This document shows, in pieces, positions 12,383 through 46,204 of a stretch of 64,000 nucleotides of DNA (position 1 is the stretch's first letter; each line of letters starts with the position of its first letter). A model generated the notes under the pieces. It ran no database searches. It had not been told where the DNA came from and saw only the letters and a program-made list of their open reading frames with translations. This DNA is from Micrasema longulum. Taxonomy: Eukaryota > Arthropoda > Insecta > Trichoptera > Brachycentridae. Location: the NCBI GenBank assembly GCA_022494885.1, contig JAGVSM010002902.1:1-64000 (forward strand). The letters are read 5' to 3'. The translations under genes were made by a program, and so were the position numbers.

Positions 12383-12421
12383 TTGTGACGCGTTTCGTCT
12401 TGTTAGGACATTTTCAAACAA
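12383..12421 (-). ncRNA. hammerhead-like motif, left arm of palindrome
   Basis: On the minus strand: stem I strand UUUGU, a core read as UUGAAAA (C3 and G8 of the CUGANGA consensus changed), one bulged U, stem II GUC/GAC, GAA, palindromic stem III ACGCGU, C at the cleavage position, then ACAA closing stem I. The architecture matches the intact motif at 43,220-43,263, but the two core changes predict no cleavage. Confidence 0.45.
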
Positions 12422-12748
12422 ACTAACTTAAATATTTACAAAGTTTCCTTATATACTAAAAATAATTGCTATTTTATGTTTGTGGATTTCTATACAAGCC
12501 AAAATAAGTAGAACAAACAAACAAATGTTTTTTATAATTATTACATTAATTTTAAAGTCATACCCTTACAAATGTTTTTAAATAATGGAAGGTTTTTCCC
12601 CAATATAACCAAAATATTCTTCTAATATACTCAGTATACTCTAATTGAATTTTAATTACTTTACTTATTTTGGCTTGTGTAGAAATCCACAAACATAAAT
12701 AGCAATTATTTTTAGTATATAAGGAAACTTTGTAAATATTTAAGTTAG

Positions 12749-12788
12749 TTTGTTTGAAAATGTCCTAACAAGACGAAACGCGTCACAA
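12749..12788 (+). ncRNA. hammerhead-like motif, right arm of palindrome
   Basis: Inverted twin of the motif in the left arm, with the same core changes, stem II and ACGCGU stem III. The pair faces outward from the loop. Confidence 0.45.
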
Positions 12789-12899
12789 TATACCCTTTGT
12801 ATATTTTATAAAAAATAAAGTAGAATTACAATCCAATTTATTTATTATTTATTTATTTAAATTTTTATTCCAGTAAAATGGCTATAAAGTGCAGAGCCA

Positions 12900-13020
12900 A
12901 TTCTACCATATGAACATATAAACATGAACATAAATATAAATATAAACATAAATATAACAATAAACATAAATATAACAATAAACATAAATATAACAATAAA
13001 CATAAATATAAACATAAAAT
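12900..13020. repeat. AT-rich tandem repeat (AAACATAAATATAA-like)
   Basis: About eight imperfect copies of a 12-14 bp unit, ACATAAATATAACAATAA and variants, next to the 3' end of the minus-strand retroelement fragment at 13,041. Confidence 0.7.
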
Positions 13021-13040
13021 AAAATTTTATATTGCGGCAC

Positions 13041-13500
13041 TTATGGTGGTCTTAACATATCGCGCCATCGCTTGAACAACGGTGATTGGATCCACTCTGC
13101 AGTGGCTTGGAGAATTTCGTTATTAGATTTTTTTAGGCGTTCCCATAGGCTCCAGGCTCTTTGGCGAAGCAGGGCAGCGAAGGTGTTTATTCGTCCAGCT
13201 GTAAACATTTCAGAGGCACTGCAGTACCTGGGCAATCCGAATAATTGTCGGTATGAGTTGTTATATGTGATCCTTAATTTATTCCACGCTCCTTGCGTAT
13301 GGTTGTTCCAAAGTTCCGCTGTATACATGGACGTCAAATACAAAGTAAATATGATTTTCTTCACTTCGTTACTGCATTGAAAGAAGCGTCTCACTAGCAT
13401 AGAGGCCCTGACATTAATGGTTCTTCTCTGTCTCTCTATGTCCTGATCGTCTTTACAATTATCAGTCAGTATGTGCCCTAGATATTTAAATAAACAATAA
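13041..13500 (-). pseudogene. non-LTR retrotransposon C-terminal fragment
   Basis: The minus strand encodes KYLGHILTDNCKDDQDIERQ, MLVRRFFQCSNEVKKIIF and FGLPRYCSASEMF, the region that follows the RT domain in non-LTR elements. It is open for about 150 codons to a stop near 13,041. The 5' part is lost at about 13,500. Confidence 0.8.
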
Positions 13501-14309
13501 ACAATAAACTTGTTATATTTTGGATACATCACCAAATAAAATATGGAATTCTATCAATTATCTGCATACACAATAAATAATATCGGTCGATAATAATTCA
13601 TGTTTTATGTTGTACAATGAAGTTCCATAGTATTTACGGCGGTAATTAATAGCTGCTATTTACACGAATAGTAATTCAAAAAGAATTTTAATCTTAAAAA
13701 CCGGTTGTGTGTTATATTACTTGACTATCGAATACAATCACAATAATTAAGCAATTTTCATTTGGCGTCTCGTTTCATTGAGTTTTATTAAAAAAAAAAA
13801 AAGTAATATAGTTTTGTCCCGACCCTGATCAGCCTCTCTATTTGTTTTAATTGTAGGACTAGTATCGTAAAATGTACTTTTTTTTTATTAGCTCTTTTTT
13901 TTCCACCTTATAAACAATTATTTATAATAAAAATAATGCTTTTTACTGACGAGTCATAATCCCTGTAAATGCCTAGACTTCCACATTCCTTTTCAACAAT
14001 GTTTTAGATCTTCAATTTAATATTAGGTATTACCATTATTTAGATTGAAATAATAATGAGATTTTTGTGTTGAGCGTGACTATATTATCTGCCAGAGGTC
14101 ATTATCAGAAGTTGAAGAAGTGGTTCTCAGTGACCCTCAAATGAACACTCACTGGAACAAATATGAGAAACATCATTATATTTGAATTTTTTTTTGTACC
14201 CATAAATTGGCGGGTTTATTACAACCGGATCTTAATTGACCAATTTTAGACCATTGTAGGAAACTGCTGCAGATATTGCATAGATTCATATACTTCTATT
14301 AATAATAAT

Positions 14310-15235
14310 AACAATAATTATGGATAACTTATACAGCGCCATTTTCGTAATATAATACCTCAAGAGCGCTTTACAAAGTGATTATATGAAGATATAAATT
14401 TAATTTTAACTTTTTAATTTAAGAAAAATAATGTACTTTGTCACCACATGCAAAGAATTTATTCAAATGATCTAGAGAACAAGTGGGTTTTAAGTTTCTT
14501 CCGAAACATCACTTCACTCTCACAGTTTCGGACTTCTGCTGGGAGAGCATTCCATGCCGTAGGGCCTGCGACCGAAAATGCACGTTCGCCGAATTTAGTG
14601 CGCTGTTTGCGTAGAGGTATAACAACTTTTCCTTTCGACGTAGATGTAGCTGATCTAAGCGTAAGACGTCTGTCAGCTAGTTTATCTGGAATGCAGAGTT
14701 CCCTTAGATATTCTGGAACAGAGTTGTGCAGTGACATAAGCCAACAGAGTTTGTATTCCACCCTCTGTGGAAAACGTAGCCAGTGCAATTTCCGAAGTAG
14801 TGGAGTGATATGACTGAACTTAAAGATTCCAAAAATAAGTCTCGCTGCAGCATTCAATACAGCCTGTAGGCGAGTCATTTTATTCATTGGTAGACCTGCG
14901 TAGATACCATTACAATAATCGACTCTAGACACTACAAACGCATTTATTAATTGACGGGTGGCATCAACTGGCAAATTTTTGCGTATGCATTTTAATCTGT
15001 CTCAGCTGGTAAAAGCATGAACTTATCGTTCTACTAATTTGAGTGTCAAGAGAAAGGTCAGAATTAAGGAAGACTCCCAGTAGTTTAACGGTGGGTAAAG
15101 CGGTACTCCTTACATCGGGTAGTGCCGTATCCTGAATCAAATTCTGTCGTCTGGCTGAAGCCATCCATAGTTGTTCCGTTTTAGATGGGTTAAGTGTTAG
15201 TCTATGTTTATGTCTATTAAGCGTGTTGTCCAGAT
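14310..15235 (-). pseudogene. CR1-like non-LTR retrotransposon, 5'-truncated
   Basis: Read on the minus strand: NRHKHRLTLNPSKTEQLWMA, then VKLLGVFLNSDLSLDTQI, SRVDYCNGIYAGLP, LQAVLNAAARLIFG and AFSVAGPTAWNALP, ending KLKTHLF. This order is typical of the C-terminal half of CR1-type ORF2. A frame shift separates the parts near 14,970. The 3' tail contains GAAAATGGCGCTGTATAAG and ends in an (ATT)n-like run near 14,300. Copies of this tail occur at 15,420-15,470, at 36,857-37,349, and on both outer ends of the inverted repeat at 46,206-48,253. Confidence 0.85.
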
Positions 15236-15239
15236 ATTT

Positions 15240-15835
15240 ATTGAAATAAATATTTATTTAATAATTTTAAATTGTATTTTTTTCTATTTTTAAATAATAG
15301 GCATGCTTCCACTTTCCATTTTGTTGTATCCCAACTTAACACAGGGCTCTTGGCCTCATAGAGTTAGGGATAAGTTATTATTTTATTGTAATATTTATAT
15401 ATATATATTTATATTATTGAGGTGATTTTCACAAAAATGGCGCTATATAAATTATCCAAACGTTATTATTATTATTAATCAATATATTTAAAAAATGGTA
15501 GGTAAATGTTTTTTTTTATTCTATACCAATCTACTTTTGTACATCTAGTAAATGATATAACTGTCACTCCCCAAAAAAAGAGACTAACTCTTGTGCTTGG
15601 AGAGTGACTTACACTGTTATAGTTATTTATTTATTTTAATAATTAGTTATTGATATTCTGTAATTTATAATAAATACTTACACTGCATACAAATACTTGC
15701 ACTACATATTTTTATATATCTTTTTATAAATACTTACACTGTATACAAATACTTACACCACATATTTTTATATATCTTTTTATAAATAAATATGTTTAAA
15801 AATATATAGTGTAAGTATTTAATTACATATCCAGT
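15240..15835. other. AT-rich repeats, no gene
   Basis: Contains a CR1-like 3' tail (about 15,418-15,478, GGCGCTATATAAATTATCC then (ATT)n) and a direct repeat of TACAAATACTT with TTTTTATATATC (15,680-15,790). The block AAAAAAAGAGACTAACTCTT near 15,575 recurs at about 52,235. Confidence 0.5.
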
Positions 15836-15837
15836 GA

Positions 15838-16030
15838 TGCATAAGGCACTGCATTATTAAACCAAATGCAGCCTAATTCGATCATCAGTTTTATGAAGGT
15901 AAGTTGATCGGTCCTTCGCTTCAGACTGCAGTTTAAAAAAAACCTTAAAATAAATATTGCACGTCCGCCCTGTCAGGAATCGAACGCAGGACCTCAAGAA
16001 CGATAGACGAACACGTCAACGAGGTAGACT
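15838..16030 (-). repeat. SINE family A-related copy, diverged
   Basis: Minus strand: B box GGATTCGAT replaced by GCGTTCGATTCC, then CTTCGCTTCAGAC-type body and a GATGCATAAGGCACTGCATT block seen at the 3' end of family A. It is old and internally deleted. Confidence 0.5.
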
Positions 16031-16574
16031 TATCTCCTCTTGATTTCATCAGTCAGGATTTTAACCTGAGGGCAGCAGGGGCGAACCGTGCATAGAAACG
16101 ATTATGCGCAGCTTACCATTATATTTGACTAACCATAATAATGTTTTAATGTAACTTTATTTACAGAAAAACAAATAAATAATTACCATTTATTTAAAGT
16201 CATTTCCACCGTTTGTATTTTTATCCTAATATAAATATAAATTTTAATAAAGCGCGCCCAGCGCCTGCGGTGAGCCAAGAAACTAGCCGATTATTCCTGC
16301 TTATTTTTTCATACAAATGAGTATACTATATTTTGAATGTTTTAACTCCTGTGCGAGTTTTTTCTCCTAGATTAAACTTGCAGATTACACAAATTATTTG
16401 AAGATTCTTGCTTTGGAAAACTGTATTTCAAACATTGTTTCTTAAGGACTATTTTTCTTTGAGATGGTACTTTTGACAATATGGGCAGAATGGTGAATGT
16501 TACACACTATGTAAGGCGGTCACTTAAACCAGCCAATGACAGGTCATAAGCCCTGTAGATGCCTAGACTTCTAC

Positions 16575-17023
16575 ATAACAACAACAACAAACCATCAAGC
16601 CGTTTCCCCGTAGCGGTAGGCAGAGAGGATAGAACGCCATATCACTCTATCTTTGCATACAGACCTCGCTTCCTCTACATTCATACATCTTCTCATGCAC
16701 GCACGCCGATTATTCCTACTTTTGACATGTCCATCTTCAAGTATTTGATGGACTTGATCGTGCAATGTCTTTCTCGGTCTTCCTCGTTTCCTGCATCCAT
16801 CAACATTCGCATCGTAGATCTTTTTAGCCGTTCTTTCACTGTCCATTCGCTCTAGATGTCTAAACCAACGCAGCACCCCTTTCTTGATTCTGTCGATAAT
16901 GCATGCCTCAGCCTTACACAGTTCACGGATCTCTACAATTGTGCACCTAACATTCATCGTTTTACCACACATTCGCCTGAGGGATTGCATTTCGTCAGCA
17001 TTTAACTTGCTTTTATTTTTCAT
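16575..17023 (-). pseudogene. non-LTR retrotransposon C-terminal fragment
   Basis: The minus-strand ORF contains CIIDRIKKGVLRWFRHLERM and KRGRPRKTLHDQVHQILEDG, then CKDRVIWRSILSAYRYGE. It is the same family as the copy at 11,365-12,045, with the 3' end at a (TTG)n run (about 16,577-16,590). The start of the ORF is lost. Confidence 0.8.
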
Positions 17024-17059
17024 AATTTTTCCAATTCTTCTATTCTTCTATTCTGCTTA

Positions 17060-18235
17060 TATATTCTATATTACTTTCTCTAAAATGTTTTTCATTTATA
17101 AAATATTAAACTATAAAGTAGATACTAACCTCCTAAATAAAATACAATTAAATTCTGGATTGAGAACACTCAGACATCGGGAAATATTTAAACTGCCTCT
17201 GTTTTTAAATAATGCTACATACCACACACCTATGGCCCGCATGTGTCGGGAATATAATTTATGCTGCCGAAACAATAAAATTGTCATTTTTCACGATACT
17301 TTCTCAGCTTTAGCGAATAATCTCTTAGGAATAAGTCTTATTTAATAAGTACACGCGTACAACTTATTTTTTATTGCATGGTATCCTGTATAAATATATA
17401 TATATATACAAAAATATGTATTATATCTTAATATATAAATCTATTTTGTGTAATTCTATAATTAAAGATATATATATGGTTATATGGTCACCATATTATA
17501 AAGTGCATATAAATAATATCGAAAGAATTCAGCATAAATTTTTACGTTTCGTTAATTTTAAATTAGGTATTTCAGTTGAACATATTAATTGTACATACTT
17601 AAATAAATATTTAAATTTACACACATTAGAAACTAGAAGAAAATTAAATGATTTGTTATTTTTGTTCAAAATATTAAATTCAATATTTAACTGTTCCGAA
17701 CTGTTAAAACTAATTAACTTGCGAGTGCCCGGCCGGATTACTCGATTTAATAAACTCTTCTATATAAGTGTATCTACAACTAACTACAGTGCACACTCGC
17801 CTATGAGGAGAATTCATGTGTTTGCAAACGAATACGCAAATGATATAGATATATTTAATACAACACTTTTGAATTTAAAAAGGCAGGGTATCAATTTATC
17901 GTCTCCAAATTTAAATTCTTAGTTCTTTTATATTGTATACCATTTGTTAACTTATATCTGTATTCTTAATTATTATTTTTTTACATTCTTCTAATTTTAA
18001 GATTCTTTTTATATAACCGATAGGAAAAAATGAACTTCTGTTCTCTCTACTAGAATATATGTATGTATGTACTATATGTAAGATTAGTTTTATATATTTT
18101 AGTTTTCTTTTTCTTATTACTTCATTTTCAATTTTTTGCTACTTTGGTGTAAAATATGTCTGTTCTTTAAATATAAATATATGTAAAACATGTAAAAGCC
18201 TACAAGGCGTTTAAATAAATAAATAAATAAAATAT
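17060..18235 (+). pseudogene. non-LTR retrotransposon, 3' half with poly(TAAA) tail
   Basis: The plus strand carries SPYYKVHINNIERIQHKFLR, LETRRKLNDLLFLFKILNSI, LINLRVPGRITRFNKLFYIS and SPMRRIHVFANEYANDIDIF. This is the IQHKFLR region and C-terminus of a CR1/Jockey-group ORF2. The 3' end is an (AAAT)n tail at about 18,212-18,233. A short copy of the same segment lies at 24,655-24,960 inside betaGRP gene A. Confidence 0.8.
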
Positions 18236-18370
18236 GCATGTAAAATGTTTTTATGAATGTATGTATGTGTATGCGCATGGGTGTATGTACGTGTGTGTGT
18301 ATGTACATGTCTATATATGTGTATATTTATATATACATGTGTGTATATGTGTGTATGTCTGTATGTATAT
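18236..18370. repeat. TG/TATG-rich microsatellite
   Basis: Imperfect repeats of TGTATG and GTGTGTATG, with nothing else recognisable. Confidence 0.7.
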
Positions 18371-18871
18371 GAATCAAAATGTGTTTCCGAATAAGTTTAT
18401 ATTTTGTTTGTCTGTGCTCTATATTAATTTGTTAACTATTATAATATATAAAAATGTAATTGCCTAGCTTGGAACGGGGTATGTACCTTTGTTAGCTGGG
18501 CAAAGTGAATATGGAATTGTATTTTGATAAAGAGTGTGAATAAATAAATAAATAAATAAAATAAAATTGTATCTACGAATGCTTTCAAGTGGTATGTTTT
18601 CTAGTATGTATCTTTGTTGAATTACCTTAGAAAATAAAATAAATAAATAAATAAATCTCTGTTGTGAAGGGAGTTCAAATCCAGTCCTTGTCTACAAAAA
18701 TTAGGACAAACTCAAAATATTGTTGTAATAATATCAATTTATTTTTTAAGTTTCTGATTACATTAAATTAGCCAATTCTGTTGTTTTCTGCCGTATGCCT
18801 ATACTACGATCTTGTTTACAACCGTATGACAGTGTGTGTACATTTTAGAAACGGGTCGGTCTTTTAGCGCG

Positions 18872-19004
18872 ATGGCGTCTCGCGAGTTCGCTTTAGTAAT
18901 TGTGTGCCTAACTTTTATTTTACACGTTGTAACCTCGCAATTCGCCATTCCTAATGTGGAAATACAAGCCATCTCACCTGTGGGATTCAGAGCGTCGATT
19001 ATAG
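18872..19004 (+). CDS. betaGRP: betaGRP-A exon 1 (signal peptide)
   Basis: Encodes residues 1-44 plus one base. A hydrophobic core (FALVIVCLTFIL) is followed by a likely cleavage after VTS. The mature protein would begin QFAIPNVEIQAISPVGFRAS. Donor ATAG|GTTGGT, phase 1. The intron of about 4.8 kb is filled with repeats. Confidence 0.88.
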
Positions 19005-31000: not shown

Positions 31001-31963
31001 TCAATAATCTCAATTTCGTCGTTTTTGCAAATGGTCACTTTTACTTGTATAACTACGATTTAATTTAACAAAATAGAAAAAAAACGAATGCACCGCGACC
31101 CAAGTCTTCTACATTAGAAGCTTCATTATTTACAAATGTGACATGTTATTATGTAAACTCTCCTTTACTTAAACCTTTAATTTAATATAGCTCCGTTTGA
31201 TTTAATTATTTACTACTAAAATTATGTAATGAAATTATCTGTATTAACTAAGTATGAATCTTAAAATGTTTCATTTATAGGTATGTAAACTTCCCTGTCA
31301 AAAAACCAAAGTATTTTCCAACTTTATCTGTTAAAATGTAGATTCCCCACACTGTTGTATTTCGCCATGTGTTCTCTTCCCACATTTTAAATAATAAAAC
31401 TTAATCCCTTTCGGTCCAAAAACTCCCAAAAATGAATTGTATAGCAAACTAGTTGTAAATATTTATGTTTTCTGTCCCCTGTTAAAATATTGTTCTATCT
31501 TATCTCCAAAATATGTTAAGAATAGTATAAAAGCTGTAAACGTTGTAAACAAATCACCAGTCTTGAAGATGCCTACTTAGGCGAAAGCGCTCGTTGGTCA
31601 AAATAATAAAAAGTAAAACTAAACCAAGAAGTTTCATTGATAAGTTTATTTATAAATTTTATCATTATCATTAAATGTGATATTGTAATATTTTTTTTGA
31701 TTTTCTCATCCGACTTCCTTAACCATTATTTTTATTTTTTTAAATGTTACATGTTTTTTTCTTTCTAGTTTTACATAACTCTTGGCCTTGGAGTGGGAGG
31801 TATATCAGACTTCCCCAATGGAATCGGCAATAAAAAATGGACAAGTACTGACCCTAAAGCCATGTCCAACTTCTGGAAGGACTTTGGCACGTGGTACAAC
31901 ACGTGGGGAACAAGTGAAACCAGGGACCTTTTTATAGACAGTGTCAAAATCTGGGCCCTTTGA
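18872..31963 (+). CDS. betaGRP: beta-1,3-glucan recognition protein, gene A (8 exons)
   Basis: Secreted pattern-recognition receptor of the insect betaGRP/GNBP family, which binds microbial beta-1,3-glucan in haemolymph and triggers the prophenoloxidase and Toll serine-protease cascades. Exons: 18872-19004, 23785-24009, 25415-25623, 26870-27015, 28471-28634, 28781-29032, 29488-29633, 31769-31963 (1470 nt, 489 aa plus TGA). The ATG at 18872 is preferred to an in-frame one 12 codons upstream because it puts a signal peptide (MASREFALVIVCLTFILHVV) at the N-terminus. About 24-120 is the CBM39-type glucan-binding domain (GIKLFGFHGKVDE, LNVGDTIQYW). About 120-165 is a linker. The rest is GH16-like (SFKYGKIEIKAKMP, GDWIYP, DGFTLSVDG, FYITLGLGVGG). 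The segment that holds E-x-D-x-x-E in active glucanases reads QLYLEPARS, so no hydrolysis is expected. All splice sites are GT/AG and the frame stays open throughout. Confidence 0.93.
19485..19720. repeat. foldback-family repeat fragment (intron 1 of gene A)
   Basis: Contains TATAGAAATTGAAAAAATAA, GCATTGCCTAGTATGTAGGT and GGGCAGAATAGTGAATGTTA. These three blocks occur in the same order at 33,830-34,100 and 52,690-53,110. It is one outer half of the interspersed family whose palindromic core is best seen at 55,134-55,361. Confidence 0.6.
19680..19985 (+). pseudogene. CR1-like retrotransposon 3' fragment
   Basis: Plus-strand translation reads HAARVWNHLPSTIKDVTTLS, then LIKSRLKKHLLSLP and stop. 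This is the C-terminal motif (WN.LP....FK..LK.HL) of CR1-type ORF2. It sits in intron 1 of betaGRP-A. Confidence 0.65.
20519..20707 (+). repeat. SINE family A, 5'-truncated
   Basis: Starts inside the B-box region (CTTGGGTTCAATTATT) and continues through the body to an (AAT)n end. The A box is missing. Intron 1 of betaGRP-A. Confidence 0.75.
20760..22700. other. intron 1 background, no gene
   Basis: AT-rich sequence with a foldback-family half at 21,350-21,425 (TTACAGGGTTTACGACCTGT). No exon-like open frame with flanking splice sites was found between exons 1 and 2 of betaGRP-A. Confidence 0.4.
22726..23050 (+). pseudogene. non-LTR retrotransposon C-terminal fragment
   Basis: The plus-strand peptide has the Asn/Lys-rich LNFNYNIHPRNTTTSNNLTY, then LSNDLKDIQNKNALKKHLKN after an in-frame stop, resembling the NP.EI....S...FK..LK ending of retroelement ORF2. 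An old copy in intron 1 of betaGRP-A. Confidence 0.5.
23245..23335 (-). repeat. SINE family B head
   Basis: Minus strand: GGCCTTTGTGGTAAAGTGGT (A-box region), a B box GGGTTCGATTCCC and the GTGAGCACAC junction. The sequence continues with TGTGATTTTTCTCAAGCCTG, as at 42,066-42,090. Confidence 0.7.
23395..23625. mobile_element. small element with GGGCCCCGATTAC inverted ends
   Basis: The left end CCAGGGCCCCGATTAC is mirrored at the right by GTAATCGGGGGCCCAGG. The interior (AACCGATATTTGTGTACGAA, GAACATGTTTAGACG, CATTTAGAAAACTTAATT) is homologous to 10,440-10,565 of the TTAA-flanked element. It looks like a shorter, internally deleted relative. Intron 1 of betaGRP-A. Confidence 0.6.
23785..24009 (+). 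CDS. betaGRP: betaGRP-A exon 2 (glucan-binding domain)
   Basis: Residues 45-119. Acceptor GTCTAG|ATGTTC; the split codon G|AT gives Asp, making IIDVPGIKLFGFHGKVDE. It ends at FTVSA|GTAAGC, phase 1. The segment between HGKVDE and GGRW lacks the Trp present at the equivalent place in gene B (ESGSWARD). Confidence 0.93.
24226..24550. repeat. GC-richer unidentified segment, probable repeat
   Basis: A block of markedly higher G+C than the surrounding intron 2 of betaGRP-A. It begins CTTCTTCTTGAGGTGCC, which resembles the ends of RTE-type retroelements. Open frames exist on both strands but neither looks like a known domain and no flanking splice sites were found. Confidence 0.3.
24655..24960 (+). 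pseudogene. non-LTR retrotransposon fragment
   Basis: Nucleotide-level match to 17,483-17,700 (GTCACC.TATTATAAAGTGCATATAA), with several frame-breaking changes. In intron 2 of betaGRP-A, sense orientation. Confidence 0.7.
25415..25623 (+). CDS. betaGRP: betaGRP-A exon 3 (linker and start of GH16-like domain)
   Basis: Residues 120-189: linker KLVPINTPWTPTSGG, then CESPSVTTVRNWKGPPICKG and AVIFNDNFEKLDTAKWQVEQ. The two Cys flank the junction as in gene B. The donor is CAG|GTCAAA, phase 0, which is weaker than the others (GTCA instead of GTAA/GTGA). Confidence 0.88.
25755..26554. mobile_element. TIR element (GAATTAAGAATAGTC ends), intron 3 of gene A
   Basis: The left end GAATTAAGAATAGTCCAGAA is mirrored at the right by TTCTAGACTATTCTTAATTC, a 20-bp inverted repeat with one mismatch. 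It carries two signature blocks, TTTGAATACATCGGACTGTG near the left and GTTGCGTACTGAGCGACGTC near the right. Both recur with the same ends at 54,589-54,715 and 56,570-56,696. No transposase is visible, so it is a non-autonomous DNA element. Confidence 0.75.
26870..27015 (+). CDS. betaGRP: betaGRP-A exon 4
   Basis: Residues 190-237: EYEFVSYQKSRVDVSNNKLV, then GFDNDTNSIFTGTLDLSAG. Acceptor TTTTTTAG|GAG, donor CAGG|GTAAGT, phase 2. It is part of the GH16-like fold (the edge strands that precede the CT..C loop). Confidence 0.93.
27296..28345 (-). pseudogene. non-LTR retrotransposon truncated at the RT FADD motif
   Basis: Antisense in intron 4 of betaGRP-A. The minus-strand translation begins at the polymerase box (LFADDNKVLKLIESP) and continues CLQLNIDKCK, IKDLGITLDSKLSYREHIDN, LVRPHLEYASPIWSPF, ESVQHRFLRKVAWLLG and a C-terminal VPNRVTRS. 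It carries several frame breaks. The 3' end is an AT-rich tail near 27,296-27,320. The 5' truncation lies just before the catalytic aspartates. Confidence 0.85.
28471..28634 (+). CDS. betaGRP: betaGRP-A exon 5
   Basis: Residues 238-292: CTSMIDFQCSVEALGSTIVP, RVNTKNSFSFKYGKIEIKAK and GDWIYP. Acceptor TTTTCAG|ATG. A second AG 25 nt downstream would shift the frame into a stop, so the first is used. Donor CCAC|GTATGA, phase 1. The GDWIYP motif stands at the sugar-binding cleft of the GH16 fold. Confidence 0.92.
28781..29032 (+). CDS. betaGRP: betaGRP-A exon 6
   Basis: Residues 293-376: QLYLEPARSKYGVNGYTSG, VIRVAFARGN, SGGVLLDQFEPCRSKG and SSKYHTYGIIWSP. The intron before it is only 146 bp, the shortest of the gene. 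This exon covers the position where active GH16 enzymes have their two catalytic glutamates; the motif is absent. Donor CCTG|GTAAGT, phase 1. Confidence 0.93.
29488..29633 (+). CDS. betaGRP: betaGRP-A exon 7
   Basis: Residues 377-425: DGFTLSVDGTVYGQIIPPDG, GFKSYKNSCPSM, SRWNTKMAPFDDE. Acceptor ATTTTCAG|ATG, donor GAG|GTAAAC, phase 0. Confidence 0.93.
29770..31550. other. intron 7 background of gene A
   Basis: AT-rich sequence with no recognised coding unit. It ends in the repeat that carries the hammerhead-like motif at 31,556-31,598. Confidence 0.4.
31556..31598 (+). ncRNA. hammerhead-like motif, intron 7 of gene A
   Basis: Sense to the gene: outer stem I ACCA...UGGU with an internal loop, core UUGAAGA (C3 changed to U), one bulged U, stem II GCC/GGC closed by UACUUA, GAA, palindromic stem III AGCGCU, C at the cleavage position, then GUUGGU. 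All other core bases of the CUGANGA...GAA consensus are kept. The C3 change breaks the C3-G8 pair, so strong activity is unlikely. Confidence 0.5.
31769..31963 (+). CDS. betaGRP: betaGRP-A exon 8 (C-terminus)
   Basis: Residues 426-489: FYITLGLGVGGISDFPNG, KWTSTDPKAMSNFWKDFGTW and DLFIDSVKIWAL then TGA. It ends the GH16-like domain with the usual V(K/R)(V/I)(W/F)AL terminus. Acceptor TTTCTAG|TTT. Confidence 0.94.
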   Translation, partial: FYITLGLGVGGISDFPNGIGNKKWTSTDPKAMSNFWKDFGTWYNTWGTSETRDLFIDSVKIWAL

Positions 31964-32035
31964 TATTCCCTTTTAGTCCAAATGCTATCAACCTCAATTC
32001 CTCTTTTGTAACTTGTGATAGATTTTTCCAATTAA

Positions 32036-32041
32036 AATAAA
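32036..32041 (+). other. poly(A) signal, betaGRP-A
   Basis: AATAAA lies 73 nt after the stop codon. A second AATAAA lies at 32,179-32,184 and could serve a longer 3' UTR. Confidence 0.6.
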
Positions 32042-34100: not shown

Positions 34101-34129
34101 TGAATAAATATTTATTTTATGTTTTAAAA

Positions 34130-34278
34130 TTCAACCATAAACAAGTACCTAGGTACCTACTTAAAATCAATATTTGAATTTTAGTTTTGGCAAGTACCTA
34201 GGTACCTACTTATCAATGAAAACTCTTTTTCCAAGCAAGCCAACGTTCGGACAGGACAACGTCTGTCGGGTCCGCTAG
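34130..34278 (+). mobile_element. Helitron 3' end
   Basis: Ends GACAACGTCTGTCGGGTCCG then CTAG, the CTRR terminus of Helitrons. A GGAC...GTCC stem lies just upstream and the next base is T, as expected for A/T insertion. It is about 90% identical to the end of the fuller copy at 40,136-40,774. The 5' end was not located. Confidence 0.6.
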
Positions 34279-34923
34279 TAAGTAACATAATTATAAATGG
34301 CTGTTTTTCTGTGGTTCTGTGAAAATCAACTCAAACAACAATTATTATTAACTTCCCCGATGTACGTAGCTTTATTCTACACTATTTTCATACAACACTT
34401 GTACAAAAGTTTATTAAAAATACCACAATAGCATTTAGCAGATACTTCCATTATGATTGAAATGTCAACACTAAACACTGGCCAATTCCTTTTAAAATAA
34501 ATAATTCCAAAACCGGCCACTTAAAACGCCACATGTCCTATGTGATACATATTATGTCAACGATAAACGACAACGACAAGAAAAATAGCTATTCCGAAAC
34601 AATGTTCGAAACACTTGTTTCCAAATAAAGAATCGTTAAATAATATTTGTAATCTGCAAGCTTGTTTTTGTACTAAAAAACCAAGACTGGGTTAAAAATG
34701 TAAAATAAAGACTACTTTTTTGTATGGAGTAATAAGCTAATGTAATTTAGTTGGTTAGTTTCATCGTTTACTGAGAATGGGCTCACTTTATAGATAATAT
34801 TTTTTTGTAGGAAAAAATAAATGGTGGTGGAAATTTTAAGAAACAAAAATTGTTTTATTTATTTTACCATAAATGGTGCGTCGATAAATGAAAGTATTAT
34901 TGGATACAAATAAATATCTTTAG

Positions 34924-34929
34924 TTTATT
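34924..34929 (-). other. poly(A) signal, betaGRP-B
   Basis: AATAAA on the minus strand, 15 nt after the stop codon of gene B. Confidence 0.6.
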
Positions 34930-34944
34930 AAAATGATATAATTT

Positions 34945-35133
34945 TCACAATGCAAAAACTTTGATTGAATCCACTTGAAGAGCGCTGGACTCTCCACTCC
35001 ACGTGGAATGCCATTGGTTCTTCGCGTTCCAGAAGTCTACGAGATATTTCTTGGACGTATCTCCCCAGGGCTTACCAGGAGTATCAGGAAATTGGTTGAC
35101 TCCTCCAACATGAACAGCGAGTGACAAGTAAAA
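34945..35133 (-). CDS. betaGRP: betaGRP-B exon 8 (C-terminus)
   Basis: Residues 427-488: [40 protein letters not shown] and [11 protein letters not shown] then TGA. Acceptor TTTTCTAG|TTT, as in gene A. Confidence 0.94.
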   Translation of the reverse strand, partial: FYLSLAVHVGGVNQFPDTPGKPWGDTSKKYLVDFWNAKNQWHSTWSGESSALQVDSIKVFAL

Positions 35134-38100
35134 CTAGAAAATAATAAAAAATTGTTAAAATAATATTCATGTCTGTTGGCCCTTCTACAAAAATAATATA
35201 CAAGGAGTATTCTTGGAACTCCCGTCGGGTCTTTATTCCGTGAATACGAAATCACATACGTTACTCTCGTTATTGGGAGATTTGTTGTTTTGTTTGTTAG
35301 AAAGCAAGTTGAAATAAAAAAAGAAAATAAAGCTATACATAACATTTATTCATCAAAATATTTCGTAGAAATGGCTAGATAATAATAAAATAAACACCTC
35401 GATTACTGAAATCGACTATCTCGTTCCAGAGATACAACTGAACTGAGCGCGCGCCGTGCCCTTACAAGCCCAAATTTAGACCCCCATGCGCAGCACTGTA
35501 ACGTCATTCCGCAACCTTCCTCCTATTCGCGGCAAGCTATTTCCGGTAGTCGATGAAACGGACTATCGAAAATACGAAATCAATCAAGACTAGACGATAC
35601 GAGACGACACGAGACGAAACGAAACGAAACTAAACGAAACGAAACGAAACGAAACGAAACGAAATGAAACGAAATGAAACGAAACGAAACGAAATGAAAC
35701 GAATCTGAACAAAACAAAACAAAACGAACAAAACGGAATGAAGCAGAATGAAACAGTGTGGAATAGAATGGAAACGAGACGAGACAAGACAAGACGAAAC
35801 GAAGCGTTTCGAAACGAAACGAAATGAAAAGAAAAGAAACGAGAAGAGAAGAAACGAGACGAGACGAGACGAAAAGAAACGAATCAAAACAAAAGAAAAC
35901 TAAACGGAATGGACTGTGGTGGAATGGAGTGGGCTTTCGTGGAATTGAATGGAACGTAACAAAATAAAATGACCTGAAAAGAAATAAGTTAATAACTTTT
36001 TACATATTTTTTTCCAGAATAAGCATATCATTCTTACAATCTAAGGTTATACTTCTATAATTCAATATGAAGTTTATATCGTAAATTGTATTGTATCGGT
36101 ACTATCCAGAAAACAAATTAGTGATCTAAAACATTTTATCAATCGAGTTCTATAGTTGGTATCCAAAAATCATAGTAAAAAACAGTAAAAGGGTTCGTTA
36201 ACTGAGATTGTTTTTCTTTCTTACCAATTGGTCAAACGGTGCGAGGATGGAGCCTTTTTTCCACAAATTTCTGGTAACTACATCTGCATCAGAAATACTG
36301 GAAAATCCATTCGGTGGAGGAATTATAGTTCCGTATTCGTGCCCATTTGCATAAACAGAAATGCTGTCTGAAATGAAAAGAACATTTATTCATTTATTTA
36401 TAAACGCCCATAAGTATTTTACACGAATAAGTACATCATGATATCATCATCATTCCCTTTCTGCACCTGACGGTGCATAGAGCACTGCATTGGTACACTA
36501 ATCGAAACGTATCTTAATATTTTTTGTTTCATGAAGGTAAGATGATCGGTCTTACGCTTCAACTACCAGTCGAGCAGCGTTACCAACCCTACCGATTCTG
36601 GAAGCAATATCAATCGAATTCTACTGAAATTTTACCGAATTTTAAACACTTCTTTATGGATTTGATTTGACAATTCTTGATGGAATTCCATTGTTATGAT
36701 ATTATAGCTTATATTGACATTCCCCTATTGAAATAATATGTATTTTATTTCATTCGACTTATTTTTAAAAAATATACCTACACTAAAGATAATATTCAGT
36801 TTTATATAAAATTTTCTTACACTGTATAATATTTACCAGACTGAAAATGCCCATTATTATTATTATTATTATTATGGATAACTTATATAGCGCCAACTTC
36901 GTAATAAAATACCTCAAGGGCGCTTTACATAGTGATTATATAGTTTAATTGAAGCTTTTAAATTTGTAATTTAATTAAAACAATTTATTTTGTTGTCACA
37001 TGCTACGGATTTATTCAAATGATTTAGAGAACAAGTGGGTTTTAAGTTTTTTCCGAAACATCACTTCACTTTCACAGCCTCGCACCTCTGCTGGGAGAGC
37101 ATTCTATGCCATAGGCCTGCGGACCGCAAATGCGCGTTCACTAAATTTAGTGCGCTGTTTGCGCAGAGGTATAATAACTTTTCCTCTCGCCGTAGACGTA
37201 GCTGATCTAAGCGTGAGACGCCTGTCAGCTAGTTCATCTGCAATGCATAGTTCCCTTAGAAAATTCCGGAGCAAAGTTGTGCAGTGACTTATAAGCCAAC
37301 AGAGTTTGTATTCGACCCTCTGTGGAAAACGTAGCCAGTGTAGTTCCCGAGAGGGTGAAAGCGCTAATTGGTCAAGTAAATGGGTGAAAGTGTTGTTAAA
37401 GTAAGTAAAATAAAATTACAAAATAGAGATGGTTTTATTTATGAAATTTTGAACAAAAGTTTTTTTTTTACATAATTAGCAGCTACCCTCTCCTGCTCAT
37501 TGAAATTTTGAACAAAAGTTTTTTTACATAATTAGCAGCTAACCCCTCCTACTCAAGGTTTTTTAGTGGACAAGAAACTCTGGCGGCCCCCCCTCCCATG
37601 CTTACAACCTCTGGGGGAACCCCACCTTAATGAATCCACCGATTTTTATTTAATAAAAGTTGACAACCCTGCAGTCCGGGGACTTGAAAGAAAAAAGTAT
37701 AAAAACATAGTTTTAAATAAATATTTCATGTCAATCGAGTCGGGAATCGGACCTGAAACCTTTTGCAAATAATATTGGGGTGACGATTTATAATTTGCGT
37801 GGATTTGAATGAATCGTTGATCTGTGTTAAGAAAAATGCATTTGCGCTATGATGGCAGATGCGGACAAAACAGTATGCGGCCAAACAAACCACAGCGGAC
37901 AAAAATCCTATCCTTGGAAAGTCAGGAAAGGGGATCAGAGACAGGAATCCGAATGCTAATCTCCATGTCCTGGCTTCTGGGTGGTGTTTCCTTTTTTCGA
38001 CGAACACGCGCTTTCACTATAGTTATGCGGGGAATATATAGATGAAGGTGACGGCGCGGCGGTCAGAAGATGTAAAGGTGTGCGGATGTGGGCAGATGAT

Positions 38101-41100
38101 TAAAAGGCGAGCGGATGCGGGCAGATAAATTATGATACATGCGGTTGTTGACAGAACAAATTATGAAGATATAAAAAGCGATATTGTTAATATTGGTTGC
38201 TCTGGATGTGTAAAAAGTGTTATCATAGCAACCGTAGCTACCCATGGCCATAGTGACGAGGAGAATAAATAAATATTGGAAGTTGGGAAATCACAGGATA
38301 GGATAGGTGGGTAGAATAGGTGTACCCTTATCAACTAGCGGTCCATCCAGCCACAAACTACTCAATCCCATCAACCACTCGCCCATCCGATTATATAATA
38401 CGTAGTGTTTATAGCTGTCTTAAAATTTTCTTATTTCTCTCCGTATATTAAGTCTTCTTTGCAGATTCTCACATGTAAAAAAAAGTATGTTTTTAAGTGT
38501 CCTCGGTACGGCTAACAGTGAGGACATATTATTTTTATTATTTATGATGTGAAAAAAATGTGCAAAAATAAACAATCATAATTATTTTCCTCTCCGCACC
38601 CAGTGGTACATAGAGTACTGCATTGGTAAACCAAATTCAGTCCCCTACGCTTTGGGTCCAGTCCAGGATCAATGAAATATTGCAGTTTTAACAATTTTCA
38701 CAATAGGAACGTGCCAACCGCTAAACCACTAAGCGACATACTTGTCTTCGCTCGATTTTCTTGTTCGGGATTTTCACCTGATAGCAGCCATCGAGTCGGA
38801 AGCACTCGTCCAGGGTTTTGCTTATATTTTACAAACAGAACTGTATTACCTCCCCAGGGGTTTATTTAGATCTAAAATTGTTGCGACGGAGATGGGAAAC
38901 ATTTTTGAGAGGGGAATATGGAAGTCTACGCATTTACACTTAATACACCGTTTAGCATTCGCCATTCTGCCTATGTTTAAGCACCCACATTGCCTTAAAC
39001 CAGACAATGACAGGTCATATTTCTCGTGAATGCCTAAACTTCCATACTCCTCTCTCAAAAATGTTTTCCTCTCTATTGCAACTAATTTAGAAATGTATTA
39101 TTCTTCCGCTTAGACATAGAAAATTAAATAAATTAATCTTACCTGGTCTCCAAACGAGGGTGTAGTTGAAGAAGTTATCAGTCCAAGAACTGCTTCCTTC
39201 AAGACCTCTAAGCCCAAAGCTTCGCAAAGGCTCAGAGCTGGATATCAGAACACCCCCCTTTAACATATCAGACTGCGCAGCATTCCCAGTAGCCAAGGCA
39301 ATCCGCATGACGCCCGATGCATAATTTTTACTGCCGTAAATATTCTCTTTTGGCTCCAACAATATTTCTAAAAAGACAAAAAAAATATTAAAATGAATTA
39401 TTTCATCTACCAGCATTATAATACATTATTCCCAAACTAACTAGATTTTTAAAAATTTCGTTTTCTTCAAAAGTGGAAATAAAGAAACCGCAAATCTTAA
39501 TACATGTTCAAATTCAAAATAACATTACAAATAACAAAATATTTAAGGCGTTATTTTGGGACAAAACATCAAACCAGAAACCCTTGAGCGTTTTCGGAAC
39601 AAGGTTTTTGATTTTATAAAAAAGACTCGATAATGTTGCTATTTTGCTAATTAAATAATTATTGATGTGAGCTGTCCATGTCAATTATCTGTCTATTATT
39701 AGTCCTAAATATTTTATTTCAAATTTACTTCGTCCCATGAAGATCCCCTTATAATGTGATAATTGACCCTCTACATTTAAAAGGACTTGCTTAATGTAAA
39801 TAGCCGATACTATATATATATTTTTTTAAATATCAAAAACGTTTTTCACTTTATTCACACTTATTTATTTATAAATTTGTAAAAACCACTTTAATTTTTG
39901 AGTTATACGTCGACCGGTTTCGAGGTTACTTCCTCATCATTAGGACTTGAACTAACTTAGAATTACTCGCGTTTCTATTTGTATTATAAAATATTGTAAG
40001 AAAGAAACAATCCCTTTCTTGGCAATGTATCCTATAGGCTACATTACATGATCTCATTTTTTCTCATGAACTGAAACTGCATTCAGTTAAAACTACTTTA
40101 CCATGTTTTTCATCGTTAATAGTGCACTATCGCAATCTTTATATATATAATTATTCTGTACGTGTGATGTCACTGAACTTCTTCTAAACGGCTTAACCGA
40201 TTCACGTGCGGTTTTCAGTGATATGTAGATCTTTGCGCTATGCGTGTTCGTAGATATTAAAATTTTCAATCGAATCTGTGAAAAAAAAGTTAAAAGCATA
40301 ATTTTTTTTTATCGACCTACCAGAGTTGCATTTGAAGAGGGTATTGTTTTTTTGTGTTTAAAAAAAGTTTCTTTTTGATTGTTTACAAACAACATTAGAT
40401 TTTTACGGGTCCCAAACGGATTTTTTCCTTACATTCCTTATAATTTCATCTTATTTATTTATTTAAAAAATAAATACATTTCTTAAAATCACATTCATGA
40501 ATAAAGTGCTCCCCTGTTGGTGAGAAGAGCTGAATTTAACATTTTCAAAAAGAATTCTATAATTTAAAATTAAATATTTTATGTTTTGGAATTCAACCAT
40601 AAACGAGTACCAAGGTACATACTTAAATTCAATATTTAAATTTAATAATTTTGAGTTTTGGAATTCAATCACAAACGAGAACCTAGATACCTACTTATCA
40701 ATGAAAAGTATTTTTCTAATGTGATAGCGGGCAAGCCAACGTTTGAGCAGGACAACGTCTGTCGGGTCCGCTAGTTCATAATAAACTTTAAATAAAACAA
40801 TCTTTTTTTTTGAGATTCTGAACTTTTTTTAATTTTCAAATGTGCAAAAAAATCTTTTTTCCGGTCTACCAATTCGGTTCTACCAATTTCGGGTTAAATT
40901 TAACAACACAAAATGACTTTAACCTTTTTAGCGTTGTATTGAAAGTCAAAAAGGGTAAAAAAACATATGAAAATGTATCCTCTCAGCTCTTAATTATTTG
41001 TGGTGGATATAAATTATTTACCTGGGTAAATCCAATCCCCCTTGGGTAACTTCGCGATAACTTCCACTCTGCCATATTTAAAGCTGAATGCGTTCTTAGA

Positions 41101-44100
41101 TTGGATCTTGGCGCTGATGATTGGTGGCAGGATAGCGTTGCCGAAGGCAGCTAAATTACACTCCCCTAGACTGGGCTCTCCGGTACACCTTTGTAAAATA
41201 AAAATTTCATTTGAAGAAACGCGTATTAGTATAAGCGATCTAATATTTTCAACAAGACTTTTCCATGAGATAGTTTTACAAAAAATATGCTGTGACGAAA
41301 AAATTGTATGTTAATTTCTTCATGCTATTGAAGAGAAAAATTCATTATTTTTATTTTCTTGACCATATATATACACACACGGATGAACATAAAAAGAACA
41401 CTTAATTTAATTTGTTATTTTTGAAAATTAATTCATTTCATTTATATATTTAATCCAATACATAGTTTACAAAAAAAAATGTTTATACAATGAAGGGCGG
41501 AAATGCCTGGACTGTGAAATAACAATAAATCTAATTTAATTTGCGGGTTATAACTGGCGCCACACGACATATCATAAGTTTTAATATCTAAATCAAGATA
41601 ATAGACCTTTTAGTAACTTTTACTAACCAAAATATGTCCTGGCCTAAGATTTCATTCATTTCAGGACTTGACAGCAACTCTGTTTTATGGGCGGACCAAT
41701 ATCTCAGAATGTTTAATTTATTACGTGATTTTAGTACATTCAATATAATTTCCTTTTTATTTATGGATATTTTTTTCAATTTCTATTCTCCTTCATAGAC
41801 CAGGTAAATTTATCAACAATATTTTGAGTTTGTGTTGAAAAAAAAACACAATATTCAGTCATAGTATGTAGGCGAAATAATTCAATTAGATGAATCTCAT
41901 CCGCATAATAAAGGTTTCAGCTTTTTCGCTTCTCAAACATCCACAGATGAAAAAATTGAAGGAATATAGAATATAGATCGGCGCCTTCCTTGGTGCAGTG
42001 GTCAAGACGCTTGACTCACGCACGGTAGGTTCCGGGTTCAATTCCCGGTGAGAACACAAAAAATAAAGGTGATTTTTCTTAAGCCTGGGTGTTATGTTTA
42101 ATTGGTGTCCTGACTAAGAGACGGGTACGTCTCGAAACCGGTAGACATAGAAAAGTCGGTAAGTGGTTATATACAAATATTTAATAACATTTAGTAAAAT
42201 GTTTGACCACAAAGTTAATGCTTTAAATATTAATAATATAGAACATATTGTTTTTATAATCAAAGTCGATTTTCGGCACTGAACTGAACAAAAATGAAGC
42301 AAACGACAGTGAAAATATTTAAAAACAAGTCAATTTTACTGAGAATTGATCTCGGAAACTCTTAGTTTTTCCTCACATGACGCTGCATTTCACAAATGCT
42401 TACACTTACCCGTAATTGGACAAGTCCAGCGATTGCCTGACGAAGTCTGGTCCGAATTGGTTCTCCAAAAGATCCGGTTTGATAAAAAGCTTTCCGCCTT
42501 TCACAGAAAGTTGATTTGTATTATTCATGTAAACAACGAACGGGTAATCCTGGAAGTAATATCAATTTTTTATATTATAATTAGTTTCATTTAAATTATT
42601 TATTGACAATTCTTGATGGAATTCCATTGTAATGATGTAATAACTTATATTTACATTTAAGTTATTTTTTTTATTTAAATCTTAAAGTAGTAGTAGTTAA
42701 AATCTTAAAATAAAATGCTACTACAGTAGTTAACGTGTGGTTCAATAATTGCTTTGTAAATAGTTTTGCAAGAGTCCTTATCAATAAATCTTCTGATCCT
42801 TCCCAAAATTGATATTTTTTTTGCAATCTTATTTATTACCATCTTAGCGTTTTGGTGAAATTTTTTTTTTTTTTTTTTTGTGTAAGTAAGTAAAATGTAA
42901 GTTTTGAATCCAACATTACACCTAAATATTTAATTTCAGTGACTTCATTAAGTTTTTTATTTTCTATTACAATTGATGGTGTAATTTCTATTCTTTTGTT
43001 TCCTATATTCATATATTTAGTTTTGTTAACATTTAATTTTAATTTATTAATTTTTAGCCACAGTGATACACTATTAAGATCATGATTTAGTCTGTCCATA
43101 ATTGTTTTATAATTTTCTCCCGATATATATATATTAAGGCATCGTCTGCAAAGAGTCTTATTCATTTCAGTTATTCATTTTTTTTTAAATACTTGGTACA
43201 CTTCCACTTATTTATTTTGACCAATTAGCGCTTTCACCCTCTAATGGGCATCTTCAGACTGGTGAATATTATACAGTGTAAGGATAATTTATTTAAAACC
43301 AAATATTATCTTAAGTGTAAGTACATTTAAAAATTAGTTGAAAAAGATACAATACGCAATATTTCAATGGAACAGAGTGAGACAAATTATTGAAACACGT
43401 GTTGGCGGTGTACTTTAAGAGAAATATTTATTGTTTTATTACAATGTACAGGGTCTAACTAAGGAGGCTAATAAGGGTGAGTTTTTAAATTCTATCTGCT
43501 GATTTATTAAAATTCTTACGCTATTATTTTTTTTCCTATTTATTTCTAAAATTTCCAATCAATCTAACTTTTGACCTTTATGTCCTACATGTAATTTTTT
43601 AAATGTTTTTTGCTTTATCAAAAGTATGTTAAAATTCATTTAAATGTGATGCATAGTTTGATAAGTCGTTATTTAATCAATGTGAAGCTAAATGTTCTTT
43701 CACTCTATAGTGTATTTAATGTCATAAAACAAAATAAGTGTAATAAAATAAAATACTTGAACCCACTAAAATAGCATTATATCAACTCATTAGTTAACCC
43801 GAAAAAAAATTGATAGTGATCCTTAAGATAAAAATAACTTTATTTAATTTACTTTCATATAATTTGGAATGAGGAATTCCAGCATAACCCGGAATTCAAT
43901 TTTAAAAATGTTTTCGTGTACACGTGAATATTTAAAAAATTTGGAGTAGGATGAAATATCTCAAAAACGCACGCAAAAATAAATAAAAAATGCTAAAAAT
44001 AGTATTCATTTTAAAATCGTAAATAATAACGTCACTCTTTATATCTACGTGTAGTATTTCCGGTTTCCGCTTTAAAGCCCCCGCACCTTGTAAGGAACGT

Positions 44101-46204
44101 TTTGATCATAGAAAAAAAAATTGTAGAATTTGACATTTCAACCAGAGATTATGTCAACTTTCTAGGTTTTTCTAAATCGAAACGTTCGAAAAAACAACCA
44201 TAACATAGAAATGAGCAAATTAAGATCAACTAAATGAAGTAATCAAAGCAATATTCCATAGATTCTTGTCAGGTCAGTGAAAGTAAGAACGCCAACCGTT
44301 TCATGACGTCACTCCTGAAAAGTGACACACTGATTACAGTCATTTGACGCGGTATTTGATAAATGTAACTTTAAAAAATCCGAAGATGTCGCGAAAGCGA
44401 TGAAACCGGTCACTGGATATTCCAAATTTATGGATTCAAGTATCACTCGTCTTTTATTCATATAATAAATTACTATGAACTTCCATCAAGAATTTTCACT
44501 TACAAACTTAAACAGTTGTTATTTCTGGAAGAAAACTGCCGAACCAACGTCAATTGCTTTAATATTATTAATAGGTTGGCAATTATTGCTAATAAATTTG
44601 ATAATATTGTTTATATTATTAACTCGAGTGACTCATAAATCAAAAGTTGTCTAGAATCTCACTTTTTAACTTAAATTTATGCTAAATAATGTTAGTAAAT
44701 ATTAGTATAAAACCACATGCCGAAAGTGGTTATATACTAATATTTACTAACATTATTTAAAAAGTTTTATCACAATTTATGTGAACTTATGTTAATTATA
44801 TTTAGTTTTCTCTTCACATAAAACTGTTTATTGTAGATATCTTATCTTTATTTTCATTTTCCATTTTAATTTTGATCTCGCAAATTTTATTTAGTTTATT
44901 TAATGTAATACATCACTTGTACTAATGTAATAGGCATATTTAGTTTTGTATTGATGTGTATAATAAAAGGCAGTCAGCCATGTAAAATAAAAATAAATTA
45001 ATGTACTTGTGGGGACCAGAGAGTTGTTGTCTATGGCCACAGTGCCCAATGGGCCTATTGAAGGGCGCGTAACACGTCACTCGCCCTTCTCTGTCTTCAC
45101 CAGTATTCAAATTCACTCTAAAATATTATTTCTGTAATCTTTGTATTTTCGAGTGTAATAAACCAAAAATTGTCAGTCACTTAAATTATTTTATTTATTT
45201 ATTCCTTTAGGTTAAATCCATTAAATCCATTCAATCATAATATGTTTTACATAAACTATCAAATAACTACTATTAAGTAGATATAATAATAAATCCTCTA
45301 CATACTCTTATTTCTGTCCTAACAGGGGATGAAGGGAAAATGGAAATAATAAATTTGATAAAACTTCTATAAAAATTCATTCATGATATATGTAAGATCT
45401 CCAAAAAAGTTTCCCTACTAATTTTAAGAAATCTTTGATAAAATTTTGGTACTTTCAAGATGATATTTTGAAAACATCATTTACAATGTCAGTAAAATCA
45501 TAAAATCTAACTCACTGCGATTATTCTGGTATTAAAACCATACTCACCGGCTCGTCGACGAATTTAATTTCAACTTTCCAGATTCCACCGACATCTAGAC
45601 CCGTATCGAAGGTATCCTGGAATAACAGAGCACCTTTGCACACTATGCCCGGTACTGAGACCACAGATTGGGATGGCTCACATTGCGGTCTGGGAGTGGG
45701 CCTCGGGCGAGGCGCAGATGTTGGACGAGCTCCTGGACCACTTATTACTCCGGTGTATGGAGAACCGTCTTCATTTACATAACCTGGAAAATCAAATCAG
45801 TCGTTAAATCTGTGGCAATGGCTAACAAGGGCCGATGTCGTAAATTGTAAAACTGCCATGGTTTTCGGTAATACACGAAAATGGTGTCGATCACAAAAAC
45901 AGCATTCCTCAATTTGCAGAAAATACCCGCAGCACTAAAAAATTCTTACGGTACTTTAAAAATCATTAAAACTGGTCAATTATGTAATTAGATTCGTGTT
46001 TTAATGTATAAAAAACCAACGTATTTATTGTTTATCATTTGTTAAAGTCAAAAACATTCCAACTGTTGTGTAGATTTAATTATTCACTCTTTACACAATG
46101 GAGCTATTATCTTAGTTTCACTTTTCTATGGCTTTGCTTTCTTCGTAACTACTTTCATTTGAGAGTGCCTCAATGATTTGGAACCACGTGAGTTAAAGTA
46201 CTCT

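Follow-up and report, generated by a model that had tools for sequence, protein, structure and literature searches.

The hammerhead-like motifs scattered through the window (the whole stretch of DNA analyzed here, positions 1 to 64,000 of contig C2762 in the 584-Mb genome assembly of the insect Micrasema longulum) are very probably minimal type I hammerheads of several families of Penelope-like elements (PLEs), located in the pseudo-long terminal repeats (pLTRs) of these elements, with most of the window copies short or decayed. Nine hammerhead-like places were found, and they represent eight distinct motifs, the pair at 12.4 and 12.8 kb being identical. The motifs carry one of three 6-nt palindromes: AGCGCT in family A, ACCGGT in family B, and ACGCGT in family C. 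The features that could be seen directly in the DNA are the common architecture and its covariation and, at the level of the elements, the 3' ends, their inversion, the target duplications, and the protein remnants.

All of the sites listed in a first-pass annotation of the same DNA, which counted at least eight, exist. However, two of its listed pairs turned out to be one inverted element, with 12,383 and 12,749 as its two arms, and one split motif, with 36,835 and 37,351 as the two halves of a single hammerhead divided by a retrotransposon copy. The dividing fragment is ~500 bp long and has an open frame, and by eye it is a 5'-truncated non-LTR copy; a relative of it is found at 14302 to 14795, within a retrotransposon end listed as 14302 to 15001 that also has (ATT)n. 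A scan for GAA followed by a perfect 6-nt palindrome and H, which also required stem II and a CUGANGA-like core and allowed for one extra base, returned 11 sites in the window versus a mean of 3.7 in shuffled sequences, and five of these had at least five of the six core bases (mean of 0.4 and maximum of 3 in 100 shuffles). The combination of GAA with ACGCGT, ACCGGT, or AGCGCT after it was counted 10 times, whereas 200 dinucleotide shuffles averaged 0.72 such occurrences and gave no more than 4. Nine of the 10 occurrences fall in hammerhead-like sites, and the tenth (41,216), which has no stem II, lies within an open frame resembling an exon of a glucan-binding protein. This count is the check that is independent of both stems, and it agrees with the three palindromes proposed by the first-pass annotation. 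Covariance model R2, built from the eight distinct motifs and run over the window, matched eight places at 36.0 to 46.6 bits (each of the identical arms at 12.4/12.8 kb, and six sites that occur singly), with the next match at 16.0 bits; the model was trained on the same sites, so that the result demonstrates the coherence of the proposed common architecture and not its discovery. The split site is absent from these matches because its halves are ~500 nt apart.

The three counted pairs of stem II are all standard (G-U included) in the eight distinct sites. When the sites were registered by hand and the 3' strands were reassigned among sites in 20,000 permutations, the 27 Watson-Crick positions out of 32 in stem II compared to a permuted mean of 12.7 and were equaled in a single permutation; with six sites, the corresponding values were 20, 9.7, and 27 of 20,000. 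Stem I, for which the better-scoring of two registers was used, gave a weaker signal (31 versus a permuted mean of 22.0; as high in 99 of 20,000). The stem II covariation claimed by the first-pass annotation was confirmed. The covariation score was 0.728 versus 0.270 in shuffles (none of 500 as high) and did not exceed 0.195 when the alignment was slid. These figures are generous, since the sites had been selected for the palindrome and stem II was among the criteria of the first-pass annotation. Of 92 unrelated matches to the pattern, which came from contigs of prokaryotes and viruses and in which the pattern itself forces the first pair, 10 had at least three contiguous stem II pairs. The core is unchanged in the 43,235 motif and contains the compensated U3-A8 in the 12,775 and 2,024 motifs; according to the available excerpts of Perreault 2011 (PMC3088659), U3-A8 occurs in natural hammerheads and is active in vitro. 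The stem II covariation, including U3-A8 in these two sites, counts in favor of the hammerhead reading.

Every motif contains a perfect 6-nt palindrome, on which the sites were chosen. Such a palindrome cannot form an intramolecular stem III, and on sequence grounds it fits the dimeric, helix-III-less minimal type I hammerheads reported for PLEs. Hammerheads of this kind were reportedly described by Cervera and de la Pena in 2014 and by Lunse, Weinberg and Breaker in 2017. Seven of the motifs were co-folded with themselves (the joined site was excluded), and 43,235 and 42,134 were predicted to form a clear double hammerhead at the lowest energy.

The link to PLEs is clearest in family C. A first look at the genome gave 1,691 candidates. 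Scoring was applied to 40 of these and yielded 43 matches; the loci retrieved numbered 30 (29 distinct, since both L332 and L333 are the window element), all 96 to 100% identical over the matched part. The 5' extent of the 36 oriented copies with an exact anchor varies from ~21 to 751 nt. Their 3' ends, taken from the second-longest match of each copy, lie 98 to 108 nt past the anchor in 16 tailless copies and 138 to 145 nt past it in 18 tailed copies; the remaining two are the window's own arms, which are interrupted and end at 66 and 82. As an AUG is located 12 nt before the anchor, these 3' ends are ~110 to 120 and 150 to 157 nt past the AUG (about 114 and 152), and the motif is ~100 to 140 nt from the 3' end of the copies, as for the hammerhead in a pLTR. 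The longest copies contain frameshifted PLE-like coding remnants upstream of the motif, with FVDD and GIYK...YIGQ stretches recognized by eye in L344, L360, and L362: (i) the reverse transcriptase (RT)-like stretch KRFVDDVLIC, with EIEKDRTINFLD downstream, in the translations of L344 and L362, split by frameshifts and assigned by eye, and (ii) the GIY-YIG stretch SGIYKLTCEECD.IYIGQ..RSFNIRFKE... in L360, with a similar one in L344 and a C-terminal tail after it. The Pfam GIY-YIG profile (PF01541) matches L360 with an E value of 0.0027; no Pfam RVT match was obtained in the RT-like stretches of family C.

The termini of the family C elements were mapped by blasting the 3'-terminal 207 nt over the fetched loci. 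Head-to-head inverted termini, in which both outer ends are PLE 3' ends, were found in 23 of the 29 distinct loci (22 directly and L344 via L362); L334, L347, L352, L356, L359, and L360 had no second terminus, even with 5.7 to 6 kb upstream. All 23 insertions, which represent one family selected by similarity to the window copy, have one tailed and one tailless end (query ends of 196 to 207 versus 157 to 178, with less clear-cut tailless ends of 173 in L335 and 178 in L342, and with the tailed end of the window copy read across a secondary insertion). The tail is ~38 nt long. Target duplications of at least 8 nt (searched up to 12) were found in 15 of 22 insertions and in L362, giving 16 of 23, versus 0.45% for mismatched flanks. 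The secondary insertion in the window copy was recognized from query positions 1 to 141 followed by positions 123 to 202 at a distance of ~650 nt. A 4-bp TTTA target duplication considered for the palindrome at 12.3 to 12.9 kb was dropped once the true ends and the 12-nt duplication had been found. With their coding remnants and these PLE-type insertion features, the family C copies do not support the suggestion of the first-pass annotation that the motifs may ride on unknown non-autonomous elements.

The inverted plan of PLEs is already known, and the strict count of one tail per insertion is the addition made here. According to the available excerpts of PMC3846280, Pen2a of Adineta vaga has pLTRs in inverted arrangement and target duplications of 9 and 10 bp, and the PLEs of this rotifer genus have a 31-bp tail that is optional on one inverted pLTR, unlike the family C tail, which is on exactly one end in all 23 insertions. 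A strict one-tail rule was not found stated in the part of the PLE literature surveyed. The use of each 3' end once in 23 of 23 resolved insertions places a sharp constraint on the PLE mechanism, for which other genomes rich in PLEs offer a check.

Family A is tied to PLEs as well, at the sequence level, by the protein remnant at 43,594 to 43,469, upstream of the 43,235 motif. This remnant was found with a C-terminal piece of family C (tblastn E value of 7.5e-8, and 3.0e-8 in a second search) and corrects the earlier statement that no Penelope-type protein is visible nearby. A possible remnant near the 2,024 motif gave tblastn E values of 0.23, 0.094, and, with another piece, 0.041, and is not significant alone; beside the other family A and B motifs, tblastn of the window revealed no convincing PLE coding remnant. 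The family B copies at 42,134 and 2,024 have a common 3' flank (71% identity over 98 nt) that ends ~142 to 143 nt after A9. The link of family B to PLEs consists of the architecture and this shared flank, from which we infer a PLE origin. A palindrome at 44683 to 44775 (91% over 77 nt) resembles the family B 3' flank at 42161 to 42212, and no motif was recognized beside it.

The alternative that survives best, improbable as we consider it, is that the motifs belong to metazoan retrozymes, small non-autonomous circular-RNA elements with tandem type I hammerheads that are moved in trans by PLEs. Retrozymes have a type I hammerhead with a weak helix III and are reported from insects among invertebrates in the available excerpts of PMC7229834, and families A and B align over short stretches within the window. 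However, their tandem repeats of 150 to 400 nt, each with a type I hammerhead, were not found: there were no tandem copies of the motif region among the repeats detected at 12,001 to 45,000 and no exact motif pair on the same strand in any of the 30 family C loci. Moreover, the family C copies, which are truncated to graded extents at the 5' end, continue into PLE coding remnants, and a PLE C terminus is found upstream in the copy at 43,235. A markedly smaller probability is assigned to the motif being a conserved stretch of one repeat with no RNA function, as the first-pass annotation had also considered. The family C motif is indeed nearly invariant (identical in 22 of 30 copies), and it therefore offers no covariation. 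However, the stems change between families and yet stay paired, and two stem II pairs distinguish the homologous family B copies at 42,134 and 2,024, with both bases of each pair changed. Foldback or miniature inverted-repeat transposable element (MITE)-like DNA transposons whose terminal inverted repeats contain the motif by chance can practically be dismissed, since, despite the 96% complementary arms and 12-nt target duplication of the 12,296 to 13,579 unit, the 5' extent varies where a single internal junction would be preserved by DNA transposition, the outer ends are never equal (one tailed and one not in 23 of 23), and some copies contain PLE protein remnants.

Several observations weigh against assigning the motifs to PLE hammerheads. 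Uncompensated or wobble core changes occur in five of the eight motifs, so that the window copies are mostly relics, and of the five covariation measures, one (further pair types) did not exceed its shuffled values (107 of 500). Five of the seven self-co-folded motifs, 12,775 among them, gave no complete double hammerhead at the lowest energy. As exact same-strand motif pairs were lacking in the 30 loci, no cis double hammerhead was observed; in the window, the 42,134 and 44,402 motifs share strand and palindrome, yet they are 2.3 kb apart and are not tandem copies. No intact autonomous copy was seen among the copies examined, a 74-residue query had no match in a large protein database, and the Pfam score of the L360 GIY-YIG stretch (18.4) is below the curated cutoff of 22.6, with no match for L344. 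Six-frame Pfam scans around the sites revealed no PLE domain, a negative that is weak given that the only working control was the CBM39 exon and that three other controls (an open frame taken for a non-LTR RT and two glucan-binding exon regions) were uninformative; the scan over 41,800 to 45,000 also missed the 43,594 to 43,469 remnant. The genome-wide PLE features come from family C, which leaves families A and B less well grounded, and family B has no convincing protein remnant. Our confidence is tempered because most motifs fold without clear dimers and because the assignment of family B follows from its architecture.

Minimal type I hammerheads without helix III are present by the thousands in animal genomes, some of them in PLE pLTRs, and may cleave as dimers, according to the available parts of two reviews (PMC7761336 and PMC6466107). 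The window motifs resemble them in the type I orientation, the near absence of helix III, the palindrome for dimer cleavage, the dispersed distribution, and the location of some in pLTRs; they differ from them, as summarized there, in that their palindromes fall into three families and all eight motifs carry an extra base after A9. Further likeness is to PAc of Anolis, a member of the Penelope/Poseidon clade, which has a hammerhead in the pLTR and an AUG at stem II, and for which a start site 111 to 118 nt into the open reading frame is given in the accessible text of PMC11167929. According to the same text, a fraction of genomic Penelope copies have an optional tail of 30 to 40 bp; family C is like Penelope copies in the tail, the two 3' ends, and the GIY-YIG remnant.

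If the motifs are PLE hammerheads, two motif copies, on one RNA or two, would pair their palindromes, and the resulting double hammerhead would cleave tandem PLE transcripts. Target-primed reverse transcription, initiated either ~114 or ~152 nt past the motif AUG, would generate the new copies. In the ACGCGT family, both target strands appear to be primed, and the outcome would be a short target duplication and a head-to-head inverted insertion that is tailed at one end and tailless at the other. We infer that the motifs cleave themselves and form dimers and that both strands are primed, as well as the order of priming. A more speculative idea, which we think has a small chance of being correct, is that the palindromic hammerhead dimer also serves as an integration device, in which the palindromes join two template RNAs, one for the priming of each target strand, and use of the two different start sites is coordinated; this would account for the one tailed and one tailless inverted end per insertion. 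In the parts of PMC11167929 available, hammerhead mutants of PAc still insert in vitro and cleavage needs protein, suggesting that cleavage may not be required for integration. The role of the minimal hammerheads is called a mystery in the available text of PMC7761336.

One extra base is present between A9 and stem II in all eight distinct motifs of the alignment (U in six and A in two). The first-pass annotation was correct in calling this constant bulged base nonstandard; it is not, however, unique to the window. In a comparison set of phage contigs from IMG/VR, gathered by a stem I/core pattern that left the position between A9 and stem II free, 54 of 80 loci hold a three-stem hammerhead and, among the matches listed, there were 79 distinct ones. 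Six of these 79, which were not chosen for it, have the extra base, U each time. Shuffled versions of the phage loci gave no three-stem hammerheads with an extra base, and in a second phage set, selected with one base of room at this position, the base was U in 27 of 27. The extra base is thus a recurrent natural hammerhead variant. The likeness to phage type I hammerheads is limited to the extra U found in some of these, which, unlike the window motifs, are full three-stem monomers in viral contigs. Complete three-stem type I hammerheads with the extra U are found in L071 (9862 to 9915), L097, L100, L121, L139, L149, L160, and other phage loci, and they share the locus with standard hammerheads in three loci of the unbiased set and six of the biased set. 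L265, L266, L287, and other phage contigs have multiple hammerheads with the same stem I (GGTTAA), spaced from hundreds to ~2,000 bases apart, with four or five pattern matches in each of these three. Patterns of the ACGCGT and AGCGCT forms had no matches in viral contigs, and other viral and prokaryote pattern matches, L071 excepted, were set aside as chance-like by structure.

Rfam identified no hammerhead in the whole window or in the 42,050 to 44,500 region. This negative has little weight because Rfam also misses three-stem phage hammerheads: there were no matches at the gathering threshold in ten phage loci that hold 15 of them by our own detector (11 with the extra base and four without), and the HH9 score of one standard phage hammerhead was 21.4 bits, where the threshold is 52. 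The extra base, here and in the phage hammerheads missed by Rfam, suggests that searches with a strict hammerhead consensus overlook natural variants.

In family C, A9, the extra U, and G10.1 form an AUG, and six of the eight window motifs contain this triplet. The predicted cut lies 24 to 26 nt after its A (five motifs counted; 26 in the joined site, by hand). Completion of an AUG start codon, at which the open reading frame of PAc begins, was considered as an explanation for the extra U and rejected as a general reason, as the frames close at codons 3 to 6 (computed for five motifs and determined by eye for the joined site; the phage examples read by eye close too). Because the frame closes by codon 6, unlike that of PAc, the AUG of the six window motifs cannot serve these copies as a functional start codon.

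The coordinates of the motifs and associated features are given in Table 1.

Table 1. Hammerhead-like motifs and PLE-related features in the 64,000-nt window
Feature	Positions	Strand	Details
Hammerhead-like motif, family B (site 2,024)	2009..2055	-	U3-A8 core; extra A; not in the first-pass list
Possible weak PLE C-terminal remnant	2237..2317	+	Strand opposite to the 2,024 motif
Left target-site duplication	12284..12295		ATATCGGTCGAT; flanks family C insertion
Family C insertion	12296..13579		Two inverted PLE 3' termini; left tailless, right tailed
Hammerhead-like motif, family C (ACGCGT), left arm	12381..12423	-	U3-A8 core; extra U
Hammerhead-like motif, family C, right arm (site 12,775)	12748..12790	+	
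Unrelated secondary insertion	12840..13501		~0.65 kb, in right PLE terminus; limits approximate
Tailed 3' end of family C insertion	13502..13581	+	Last 2 bases overlap target duplication
Right target-site duplication	13580..13591		ATATCGGTCGAT; 12 nt
Hammerhead-like motif, family A (AGCGCT)	31556..31598	+	U3, or CU with bulged U
5' half of split hammerhead, family A	36835..36862	+	G8 to A; cut in stem II loop
Retrotransposon fragment in stem II loop of split motif	36856..37350	-	(ATT)n at one end
3' half of same hammerhead, family A	37351..37372	+	GAGGGT GAA AGCGCT A
Hammerhead-like motif, family B (ACCGGT)	39906..39949	-	Core G5 to A
Hammerhead-like motif, family B (site 42,134)	42104..42149	+	Core G8 to U; extra A
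Hammerhead-like motif, family A (site 43,235)	43220..43263	-	Sole unchanged CUGANGA core
PLE C-terminal protein remnant	43469..43594	-	One stop inside; upstream of 43,235 motif
Hammerhead-like motif, ACCGGT (site 44,402)	44374..44417	+	Core U4 to C

The window also contains many other interspersed repeats, some of them tRNA-like, as well as a dense array of 10-bp-period repeats at 35529 to 35981 (29 registered copies) and a long near-perfect inverted repeat at 55151 to 55334 with a subthreshold match to MIR774. Open frames resembling beta-1,3-glucan-binding proteins are found on both strands at 23.7, 25.5, 28.6 to 29.7, 39.1 to 39.4, 41.0 to 41.3, 45.5, and 49.0 to 49.3 kb. They were recognized by eye apart from the exon at ~23.8 to 24.0 kb, which was confirmed by Pfam CBM39 and by PDB matches and whose translation matches insect beta-1,3-glucan-binding proteins (GNBP3 and others).

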